Below, one piece after another: positions 3,362 to 6,712 of a stretch of 20,489 nt of DNA. The translations under genes were made by a program, and so were the position numbers. The notes below the pieces were generated by a model. It saw only the letters and a list, made by a program, of their open reading frames with translations. It ran no database searches and was not told the DNA's origin. Source of the DNA: a virus; the IMG/VR virus record IMGVR_UViG_3300037585_001410, positions 1 to 20,489 of that record, one strand, 5' to 3'. Each line of letters begins with the position of its first letter. Positions within the stretch are counted from its first letter, which is position 1.

Positions 3362-3778
3362 ATGGCGGCACAAAAAGGCTCCGCAATGCTTTTAAAGGTC
3401 GATATTAGCGGAACTGCAACAACTGTTGCGGGTTTGCGGTCAACCTCAATTACAATGAATGACGAAGCTGTAGATATAACAACTAAAGACAGTAGTGGTT
3501 TGCGTCAGCTTTTGGCGGGCGGGGGAGTTCAATCCTTCAGCGCGTCAGGGTCAGGCGTGTTTACGGATGCGGCATCTGAGGCGGCGGTAAGAACTTCTTT
3601 TGATGCTCAAAGAACAGCGGGTACGTTTACAGATTTCGACGTAATTGTCCCTGACTTTGGTACTTTCGCAGGGCCAATGATGATTTCGTCTATTGAGTAT
3701 TCTGGTGAATATAACGGCGAAGTGACATATACGATCAGCCTTGAAAGCGCGGGAACATTCGCATTTACGGCTGCATAA
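3362..3778 (+). CDS. Major tail tube protein (TP901-1 / GTA type)
   Basis: The protein has 138 residues. AAGGAG lies just upstream of ATG 3362, fitting a highly expressed gene. Signature segments are QKGSAMLLKVD...TVAGLRSTSITMNDEAVDITTKDSSG, then SASGSGVFTDAASEAA and a C-terminal EYNGEVTYTISLESAG. These match the TP901-1 family of major tail proteins, also used by gene transfer agents, which polymerise into the tail tube around the tape measure. There are no added Ig domains; length is typical for the short form. Position after the tail terminator and before the chaperones agrees. Confidence 0.9.
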   Translation: MAAQKGSAMLLKVDISGTATTVAGLRSTSITMNDEAVDITTKDSSGLRQLLAGGGVQSFSASGSGVFTDAASEAAVRTSFDAQRTAGTFTDFDVIVPDFGTFAGPMMISSIEYSGEYNGEVTYTISLESAGTFAFTAA

Positions 3779-3788
3779 GGATAAGTAA

Positions 3789-4031
3789 ATGTCTTGGACT
3801 TCAGCAAATATGGAAGCTAATGGCAAATCCTTTATAGGGTGGGCCAAGCCTGATAACCAGTTTGCTATTCCTTTCCTCTCTGACTTTGGGGTGGGCGATC
3901 ACCTCAAGGTTGGAGGAAAGGTGTATCAAGCTATAACAGTGGTCGATAATCTTGACCGTAACGAACAACTTCTAATTAGTGGGAAGGAAGTTAAAGATGC
4001 CAAATCCAAAGCGCGGAGAAATGACCCTTAA
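3789..4031 (+). CDS. 80-aa protein between major tail protein and chaperone, unknown
   Basis: This small soluble protein contains GKSFIGWAKPDNQFAIPF and GDHLKVGGKVYQAITVVDN, which look like a compact beta-barrel, then a basic C-terminus KDAKSKARRNDP. AAGGA at 3777-3781 precedes the ATG by 7 bases. The last 35 bases overlap the start of the chaperone gene in another frame, so the basic tail is encoded by the same DNA as the chaperone's ribosome site and first codons. I do not recognise a family. The setting implies a tail-related role, but nothing in the sequence names it. Confidence 0.65.
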   Translation: MSWTSANMEANGKSFIGWAKPDNQFAIPFLSDFGVGDHLKVGGKVYQAITVVDNLDRNEQLLISGKEVKDAKSKARRNDP

Positions 4032-4335
4032 TCTTGGGGGTAAGACTTACAATTGCAAGGTAACAATGGACGGCTTGGCTAGAATTGAGCAAGCGTGTGG
4101 CTGTGGAATAGTGAAGATATTGACCAAACTTACAGATGGCGATCTTACGACCACGGAGATATGTTCAATTTTATTGCCAGTAATAAAAAGTGGTGGAAAC
4201 GATGTTTCTATTAAGGACATCCAAGCAATTGTTTGGGGCGCAGGGTTGGCTGACTCTATGAGGGTTGTCGGAGAAGTTTTGGCAATGTCATTGGGGACAG
4301 GTGAAGAATCGGGAAAGGATCAAGAGGCGGCGTAA
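3997..4335 (+). CDS. Tail assembly chaperone, GTA gp10-like (zero-frame product)
   Basis: The 112-residue product begins at ATG 3997, six bases after GGAAGGAAG. MPNPKRGEMTLNLGGKTYNCKVTMDGLARIEQACG is typical of GTA gp10-like chaperones: a short beta-hairpin, then helices that end in GLADSMRVVGEVLAMSLGTG. These small proteins bind the tape measure and guide tail tube assembly, like lambda gpG. The end of the frame holds a slippery heptamer (4311-4317). The next frame is open across it and carries a second chaperone domain, so a longer 179-residue product is expected as a minor form. Confidence 0.82.
   Translation: MPNPKRGEMTLNLGGKTYNCKVTMDGLARIEQACGCGIVKILTKLTDGDLTTTEICSILLPVIKSGGNDVSIKDIQAIVWGAGLADSMRVVGEVLAMSLGTGEESGKDQEAA
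4311..4317 (+). other. Programmed -1 ribosomal frameshift site GGGAAAG
   Basis: In the upstream frame the heptamer reads G GGA AAG (codons 4312-4314 Gly and 4315-4317 Lys), the canonical X XXY YYZ phasing for a -1 slip. It is identical to the slippery heptamer known for lambda G/GT. After the slip, reading resumes at 4317 and continues open to TAA at 4533-4535; the zero-frame stop is only 16 bases downstream at 4333-4335. The -1 frame is blocked upstream by TGA at 4302-4304, so the overlap window is about 30 bases and contains the heptamer. No strong downstream hairpin or pseudoknot is obvious by eye. Confidence 0.82.
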
Positions 4336-4535
4336 TAGAAGAGTATTTTCCTTGGGATGAATTTCTGGCAATCGCGCTTGGAAAAATGCAAATGCGCCCA
4401 GATGATTTTTGGAACATGAGCATCAAGGAATTTTATCTTGCGATTGAAGGATTTTCAGATTTCCACTCAGGAGGAAAGCCGCCGCCTCTAACTAAGTCTG
4501 AAGTAGATGATTTGATGGAGAGGTATCCAGACTAA
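4317..4535 (+). CDS. Downstream chaperone domain (rcc01693-like), expressed by -1 frameshift
   Basis: From 4317 the -1 frame encodes 72 residues, with conserved YFPWDEFLAIALGKMQMRP and DDFWNMSIKEF, the W-D-x-(F/L)...RP-x-x-FW-x-(M/L)-S pattern of the rcc01693/DUF2376 tail chaperones. No ATG, GTG or TTG lies between the frame's opening (4305) and this domain. The first in-frame ATG (4386) would cut off the conserved W-D-E-F helix and has a poor ribosome site. It is therefore most simply the C-terminal part of a fusion with the upstream chaperone, as lambda gpGT. Its stop overlaps the tape measure start (TAATG). Confidence 0.8.
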   Translation, partial: GSRGGVIEEYFPWDEFLAIALGKMQMRPDDFWNMSIKEFYLAIEGFSDFHSGGKPPPLTKSEVDDLMERYPD

Positions 4536-6712
4536 TGCCAACAACAATTGATACCCTCTTAGTTCGCATTGAAGCGGATATGGGCGATGTCCGTCGAAAG
4601 CTAGATAAGCTAGATAGAGATGTAAAGCGAGGCACGACAGGGGTTGCCGCTTCTTTCAAAAAATTAGGCACTGTCGTAAAGGGCGCGGCGGTTGCGGTTA
4701 TTGTGCAGCAACTAGCTAGGGCGGGTATGGCTGCAATTAACTTGGCATCTGATGTCGAGGAAATGCAATCCAAATCATCTATTGTTTTTGGCAAATTCCG
4801 CGATGATGTTGTCGCAGACTTAGAAGAATTTGGTAACGCTGTTGGGCGGTCAACATTTGAACTTGAAGGAATGGCATCAAGTATTCAAGATACTTTTGTG
4901 CCTATGGGGTTTGCTAGAGGCGAGGCGGCAAAACTATCTGTTGATCTTACCAAATTAGCAGTTGATGTTGCATCATTTAATAACGCTTCTGATACGGAGA
5001 CTATGGAGGCGTTTCAAAGTGCATTAGTTGGCAACCATGAAACAGTTCGTAGATTTGGTGTTGTAATTACAGAAGCAACACTCAAGCAAGAATTGCTCCG
5101 TATGGGGATTAAGAGAACTGGTAATGAAGTCACCAATGCTGAAAAAGTTCAAGCTAGATTAAATCTTATACTTGCGGGTACAACAGATGCCCACGGTGAT
5201 GCCATAAGAACTTCAGAAAGCTTTGCTAACAAAACAAAAAAGTTAAAAGCTGAATTTATGGAGTTGGCAAAAAAAATAGGCGATGAGCTTTTGCCTATGG
5301 CTAAAGCTCTTGTGACAGAATTTACAGAAGCCCTTGATGTAGTAGAAAGCTTTTTGCAATTTATTGGCGCATTGCCAACTCACAGTTCTTTGCAAGTAAA
5401 GCTTGAAGCGGAAAGGGCAACGCTTGAGCGATTAAAACAAGAATATGAAGATCAAAGTTGGTGGGCGCAAACTTTTGGTAATACTAGCACACTAATTGAA
5501 TTAAAAACTAATCTTATTGAAACATTAGAAAAAGAAATTTTAGCGCAAGAAGCTTTGCGAAAGCTTAATGAGGTTCCATTGCCGCCGTTACCATTGACAA
5601 GGGGTGAAATACTTGAGCGGCTGCAAGCAAACTTGTCGGCGGGTATCCCATCACCAGAAACGCTAGATGTCATTGATCCTTCAGATGAGCAAAATAAAAT
5701 TGCAGGATCAAATGCCGTTCTTAGAAAGCGTATTGAATTAATAAACCGCGCCAATGAGTTGAGGATTTACGGCAATAAGTTAGGGGCAGCGCAAAAATTA
5801 CAAGAGTTAGAAAGATTTAACCAATATGTAAAATTTACGGATGTTGAGAAAGAATTAGGCGAATTAGAAACGGCTAGGATGGCGGCTATGGGGATATCCT
5901 CAGAGCAAATGACATCCCAATTAATTGAGCAAAATACTAATCTTACTGATTCTTTACAAGTCGCTATAGCAATACAAGAAGGCTTTGGGATCGCGACTGA
6001 AACGTCACGCGAAAAATTGATAGAGTTGCAAGATACTATCACCCAAATAAATGAAGGGCCAAGCCAAGAATTAATTAATAATATTTCTGATCTTGAAGAT
6101 CATTTATCAGGAATGGGGCCAAAGATTGAGGGCGCAGAAGAAGCGTTAGAAAAGCTCAGGCATCAGCTTGCCGCATCACAACCCTTTATGCAAACCTTCA
6201 ATGATGCAATAAGTGGTTTGTCATCTAATCTTTCAAGTAGTTTTGCTGACATGGTGGTTGATGGCAAACTAAGCCTTGATAGCCTAAAAGATATATTTAG
6301 TGGATTTGTAAAAACCATATTGCAAAAGGCTATAGAGTTGTTTGTAGTTAATGCAATTATGAACGCTATTTTTGGCGGGGTTGAAGGCTACGATATGCTA
6401 CCTGTTGGGAAGATTGGGGGCAAGGCGGGGGGTGGGACTGTCCAACCTAGAACGCCAGTATTGGTTGGAGAGCGTGGGCCTGAGCTTTTCGTGCCGTCTG
6501 GCGCGGGTGCAATTATGAATAACATGAACACAAATAACGCATTGTCGGGAGCGGGCGGCACTGTAGTAAACCAAACTATTAATATATCAACAGGCGTGGC
6601 GCAAACCGTCAGAACGGAAGTGCAATCTATGCTCCCTCAAATTGCAGAGGCTTCCAAGATGGCGGTTTTAGATGCGCGTAGAAGAGGTGGCAGCTTTGCC
6701 AGTGCGTTCTAA
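4535..6712 (+). CDS. Tail tape measure protein
   Basis: This 725-residue, largely helical protein sits directly after the chaperones. The N-terminus has a charged coiled coil (VRIEADMGDVRRKLDKLDRD) and a hydrophobic stretch near 46-68. The middle is heptad-rich and Glu/Lys-rich. A hydrophobic segment near 605-620 precedes a Gly-rich region. The motif at 643-655, LVGERGPELFVPS, is the common C-terminal mark of tape measure proteins. The protein sets tail length and is later ejected towards the cell. At roughly 1.5 angstrom per residue it would fit a tail near 110 nm (rule of thumb). No lysozyme or peptidase domain was recognised inside it. Confidence 0.92.
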   Translation: MPTTIDTLLVRIEADMGDVRRKLDKLDRDVKRGTTGVAASFKKLGTVVKGAAVAVIVQQLARAGMAAINLASDVEEMQSKSSIVFGKFRDDVVADLEEFGNAVGRSTFELEGMASSIQDTFVPMGFARGEAAKLSVDLTKLAVDVASFNNASDTETMEAFQSALVGNHETVRRFGVVITEATLKQELLRMGIKRTGNEVTNAEKVQARLNLILAGTTDAHGDAIRTSESFANKTKKLKAEFMELAKKIGDELLPMAKALVTEFTEALDVVESFLQFIGALPTHSSLQVKLEAERATLERLKQEYEDQSWWAQTFGNTSTLIELKTNLIETLEKEILAQEALRKLNEVPLPPLPLTRGEILERLQANLSAGIPSPETLDVIDPSDEQNKIAGSNAVLRKRIELINRANELRIYGNKLGAAQKLQELERFNQYVKFTDVEKELGELETARMAAMGISSEQMTSQLIEQNTNLTDSLQVAIAIQEGFGIATETSREKLIELQDTITQINEGPSQELINNISDLEDHLSGMGPKIEGAEEALEKLRHQLAASQPFMQTFNDAISGLSSNLSSSFADMVVDGKLSLDSLKDIFSGFVKTILQKAIELFVVNAIMNAIFGGVEGYDMLPVGKIGGKAGGGTVQPRTPVLVGERGPELFVPSGAGAIMNNMNTNNALSGAGGTVVNQTINISTGVAQTVRTEVQSMLPQIAEASKMAVLDARRRGGSFASAF

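Follow-up and report, generated by a model that had tools for sequence, protein, structure and literature searches.

A probable lambda-type −1 frameshift site joining two gene transfer agent-family tail chaperones in a marine phage

Background

How is a tail assembly chaperone domain produced if its reading frame has no start codon before the domain? This question is raised by a tail locus in which a gene for a chaperone of a gene transfer agent (GTA) family (hereafter G) is followed, in the −1 frame, by a second chaperone domain (T). Bacteriophage lambda is said to make its G and GT proteins through a programmed −1 frameshift, reportedly described by Levin in 1993 and by Xu in 2004 and 2013. 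According to a review, the binding partner of lambda G is the tape measure protein, and that of T is the tube protein (PMC5009743). We asked whether the same kind of frameshift is the best explanation of the locus described here, and how it compares with phages and GTA-like clusters.

Sequences and searches

The window, i.e., the whole stretch of DNA analysed, is 20,489 nt long and corresponds to positions 1 to 20,489 of the IMG/VR virus record IMGVR_UViG_3300037585_001410. The source virus is a marine phage. Searches of IMG/VR gave 21 loci with the G query and 72 with the T query; these yielded 55 distinct T sequences, the window included, which are related, so that counts over them are not independent. 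A class-wide sample of 289 genomes contained 37 with PF09550, and 30 loci of these were examined. Two of the four loci from a scan of genome contigs (L100 and L101) were discarded as chance matches to unrelated proteins.

Results

Layout of the locus

The chaperone pair lies between the genes for the major tail tube protein and the tape measure protein, in the order tube, G, T, tape measure (Table 1). The ATG of the tape measure gene and the stop codon of T overlap as TAATG. The short ORF between the tube gene and G overlaps the start of G by 35 nt. It has counterparts with about 29–53% identity at the equivalent place in most viral relatives; family searches with it gave no match. It is likely a small tail gene.

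Table 1. Features of the tail chaperone locus, in window coordinates
Feature	Position	Strand	Basis
Major tail tube protein	3362..3778	+	PF06199, E=3e-36
80-aa ORF between the tube gene and G	3789..4031	+	position kept in relatives; no family match
Shine-Dalgarno-like GGAAGGAAG, 5' of the G start codon	3982..3990	+	inspection of the sequence
G ORF, 112 aa, GTA gp10-family tail assembly chaperone	3997..4335	+	PF11836
Slippery heptamer G_GGA_AAG, proposed −1 frameshift site	4311..4317	+	sequence; in-phase conservation in relatives
T extension (−1 frame), 72 aa, with a Phage_TAC_6 / rcc01693-type domain from about 4344	4317..4535	+	no own start before the domain
Tape measure protein	4535..6712	+	PHROG tape-measure matches

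The product of G matches PF11836 (Phage_TAC_11, GTA gp10; E=4e-11, 43.2 bits) above the gathering cut-off of 27.8, and T matches PF09550 (Phage_TAC_6; E=3e-11, 44.2 bits) above its cut-off of 23.4. The match of T to TIGR02216, the rcc01693 family (E=3.5e-10, 40.0 bits), is below the curated cut-off of 56.1. The families of lambda gpG and gpT (PF06894 and PF06223) gave no Pfam match at this locus. The description of PF11836 reads “Phage tail tube protein”, and the fold of G recurs in several predicted proteins called “tail tube”. This name looks wrong, given that the window has a separate tube gene.

Folding of G from the single sequence gave a poor model; a usable one was obtained with 25 sequences. 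It predicts a beta hairpin plus helices, and disorder from residue 102. A tail that is disordered around residue 107, where the slip would occur, would fit a linker to T. The model resembles predicted viral proteins in BFVD, several of which are named tail assembly chaperones. A PDB fold search gave nothing significant, a sequence search for solved relatives found none, and tblastn of G against named phages gave no matches.

Slip site and reading frames

Read directly from the window, G extends from the ATG at 3997–3999 to the TAA at 4333–4335. Its start is backed by the N-terminus (M)xNPKRGE, which is conserved in relatives. The zero-frame codons of the heptamer are GGA (4312–4314) and AAG (4315–4317), i.e., it has the X_XXY_YYZ phase. 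The open stretch of the −1 frame, 4305 to 4535, runs past the stop of G. Its first ATG, GTG or TTG is the ATG at 4386, within the T domain; upstream of the domain the window has no T start codon in this frame. Reading after a slip would give GSRGGVIEEYFPWDEF... and a predicted product of 107 + 72 = 179 aa.

Direct reading therefore bears out the initial annotation, which had placed a frameshift between a GTA gp10-like ORF and an rcc01693-like domain without a usable start at these very coordinates, with a 179-residue fusion (as predicted from sequence) alongside the 112-residue product. Only the distance to the end of G needs correction: it was given as 16 bases, and there are 15 nt between the heptamer and the stop codon.

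The window has 37 in-phase XXXYYYZ heptamers in 4451 codons, four of them GGGAAA, and so the heptamer is not outstanding within the window alone. The evidence for a slip site is the combination of its position, the missing start of T, and its conservation.

Conservation in viral relatives

An in-phase GGGAAA is present in 54 of the 55 distinct loci, as GGGAAAC in 51 and as GGGAAAG in three. Thus the A-site codon is AAC in most relatives, and the AAG of the window is a minority form. The exception, L028, is without GGGAAA and retains A_AAA_AAG 9 nt further on. In an alignment of 26 rows (L028 left out) GGGAAA is invariant, while most adjacent columns vary; an alignment of homologues had been proposed as a check of conserved heptamer and phase against variable flanking codons, and this is what it gave.

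In one subgroup of five close relatives (L024, L027, L034, L013, and L015), GGGAAA[C/G] is followed 9 nt later by AAAAAAG, so that there are two candidate slip sites in tandem. In L028 and L014, which come from one contig, the first of the tandem sites is lost and the second (AAAAAAG) is kept.

The heptamer is also conserved at synonymous sites. The slip-site glycine is encoded by GGA in 54/54 loci, against 18% of the glycines in the same ORFs; the preceding glutamate is GAG in 51/51 (background 38%), and the slip-site asparagine is AAC in 51/51 (background 26%). An in-phase GGGAAA results from 6.8% of synonymous resamplings of the three slip-site codons. Part of the conservation could be due to protein constraint, since two frames overlap here.

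In 39 of 54 loci a stop codon closes the −1 frame directly 5' of the heptamer. The distance from the heptamer to the G stop is 15–30 nt among the relatives. The first start codon in the T frame varies in position: 53 of 54 loci have it at +36 or later, and the remaining one (L030) has a TTG within G, 78 nt upstream. In the viral set, the stretch from the heptamer to the beginning of the domain has no T start whose place is conserved. Homologues that combine a start codon for T with absence of a conserved heptamer, which the initial annotation had named as evidence against a frameshift, are likewise not what the viral set contains. Differences in the T frame are distributed over the codon positions as 5587/3750/13606, i.e., with an excess at third positions, and dN/dS between the window and its relatives is about 0.1–0.2. 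By these measures, the T frame is under purifying selection.

We also searched for stimulatory signals. Calculations on 70-nt windows at 54 loci revealed no downstream RNA structure (mean z −0.48), and RNAalifold predicted no pair in this region. A Shine-Dalgarno-like signal before the slip site is stronger than elsewhere in G, but it is unchanged by synonymous resampling. It arises because the encoded peptide is glycine-rich, and we rejected it as a candidate.

Comparison with lambda and other phages

The expectation of lambda-type logic was borne out by the site: lambda has the same GGGAAAG, the same X_XXY_YYZ phase, and the same 15 nt to the stop of G. The gene order is also the same, and T is not annotated from the slip site in lambda either. 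However, the protein families differ: the lambda proteins match PF06894 and PF06223, while those of the window match PF11836 and PF09550.

The use of such a heptamer with GTA-family chaperones, initially considered notable, cannot be presented as new. The tape-measure chaperones of Caulobacter phage Colossus have the slip site GGGAAAC (PMC3556154), and the usual frameshift is said to be present in most R. capsulatus phages of another study (PMC8601537). Colossus resembles the source of the window in being an alphaproteobacterial phage with a tail chaperone pair, and its heptamer is that of most relatives of the window; the comparison is by heptamer, not by protein family.

The T domain is accompanied by an in-phase GGGAAAC or CCCTTTA in a Desulfofustis phage, in two Manatee Spring genomes and in Rhizobium phage RHph_Y3_1. 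In these four named phage records the annotated T begins at an ATG in the domain region, so that start-codon-based annotation does miss part of it, as had been proposed. Oceanospirillum phage GJ44 has A_AAA_AAG directly 5' of its G stop. At the G stop of records L195 and L196 there is just AAACCCT, together with a TTG.

Comparison with GTA-like clusters

In RcGTA, g10 and g10.5 are tail chaperones 1 and 2 (PMC11409702); g10 shares the pfam11836 domain with G of the window. As in the window, both chaperone domain families adjoin the tape measure gene in RcGTA-like clusters. Unlike the window, the clusters nearest to RcGTA (with RcGTA_tape over the cut-off) have a separate T start at the stop of G, and their junctions lack a heptamer with GGGAAA or CCCTTT. 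The tape measure protein of the window has 725 aa and scores 19.3 bits with NF058675 (the RcGTA-type short tape measure), far below the cut-off of 220.

In the order of genome G254, a T-frame ATG or GTG precedes the domain in 30/30 fetched loci and overlaps or adjoins the G stop wherever G is visible. Only one of the 30 loci has an in-phase heptamer (GGGGGGG). NF058675 is above its cut-off in 11/11 genomes tested, and we therefore regard this order, which we infer to be “Rhodobacterales”, as the RcGTA-proximal one. In the clusters nearest to RcGTA, G and T thus look like real separate genes. The claim that the pair is usually annotated as separate genes holds for several public records, where T is called from an ATG inside its domain; in these clusters, by contrast, T does have its own start.

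Elsewhere the picture is mixed. In the order of G128, C_CCT_TTC without a T start is the rule in all five loci (5/5). The order of G145 is divided, with C_CCT_TTC in eight loci and an own T start in 22. In nearly all clusters of the C_CCT_TTC kind the in-phase heptamer is 12–15 nt 5' of the G stop. They resemble the window in the absence of a T start and in an in-phase heptamer shortly before the G stop, but the heptamer is a different one and lies within PFPW, a motif of the T domain. Because of this location, its conservation is partly due to protein constraint in both frames. In most of the frameshift-type clusters of these two orders a short RcGTA-like tape measure gene adjoins T, which makes them look GTA-like, judging from the genes alone. 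Four other PF09550 loci (L105, L115, L131, and L132) have neither a T start nor GGGAAA or CCCTTT at the junction.

A quick tree of 133 concatenated G and T rows requires three changes between frameshift and own start; many of its branches are weak, long branches meet, and the direction of change is not readable from it. The two strategies seem to coexist in the chaperone family.

Discussion

The site is very probably a programmed −1 ribosomal frameshift site of the lambda G/GT kind. Most ribosomes would terminate at the G stop (4333) and so produce the 112-aa chaperone. We infer that a minority, with GGA in the P site and AAG in the A site, slip back by one base at 4311–4317; the tRNAs would pair again with GGG and AAA, and translation would continue to 4535, with a GT protein of 179 aa as the product. 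If lambda is a guide, the tape measure protein would be bound by the G part and the tail tube protein recruited by the T part, and the ratio of G to GT would matter in tail assembly.

Could T be a separate gene, translated by reinitiation or from an internal start after the stop of G? The clusters closest to RcGTA appear to be organized in this way, with ATGA- or GTGA-type overlaps and a T start just before the domain, and relatives of the window have a GGCGG motif 3' of the slip site. But a start at ATG 4386 would remove the first helix of the domain, the first T start is at variable positions among the relatives, and nothing but rare codons such as ATA is available by the G stop. Separate translation would also leave the invariant GGGAAA and the codon bias without explanation. 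We consider it improbable for this locus.

Fusion through transcriptional rather than ribosomal slippage is still less probable. Runs of six A adjoin the site in some relatives; the site in the window, however, has just AAA and GGG, runs too short for usual polymerase slippage, and the X_XXY_YYZ phase is maintained. As for a chance heptamer in front of a decayed or missequenced gene fusion, in-phase XXXYYYZ is common enough in the window, but the same break, phase, and heptamer recur in 54/55 distinct relatives, drawn from many samples, and selection on the T frame is purifying. The conservation of the heptamer refutes this explanation, to which we give practically no weight. Programmed ribosomal frameshifting is thus the preferred reading.

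For GTA-like clusters we lean, with some reserve, towards a broader picture. Alphaproteobacterial clusters outside the RcGTA-proximal order may make the second chaperone through a −1 frameshift at the C_CCT_TTC in PFPW, and the strategies may have been switched at least three times in one family. In that case RcGTA would manage with no counterpart of the fused GT that lambda needs. A literature search, with subscription papers mostly outside its reach, found no report of frameshifting in GTA chaperones, C_CCT_TTC junctions included. A +1 frameshift has been proposed for a Wolbachia GTA-like element, in a hydrolase and not in a chaperone (PMC10299305).

The mechanism itself is long known, and the window is a further example of it, with GGGAAAC already published for an alphaproteobacterial phage. 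Our analysis extends the conserved G/GT rule to a marine phage group and reveals that start-codon annotation shortens the T domain in public records. To judge from these sequences, the frameshift type occurs both in phages and in GTA-like clusters other than those nearest to RcGTA. This raises the question of whether the short-tailed RcGTA, whose two chaperones each seem to begin at a start codon of their own, can dispense with the fused GT, in contrast to related GTA-like clusters, which seem to retain the GT fusion.
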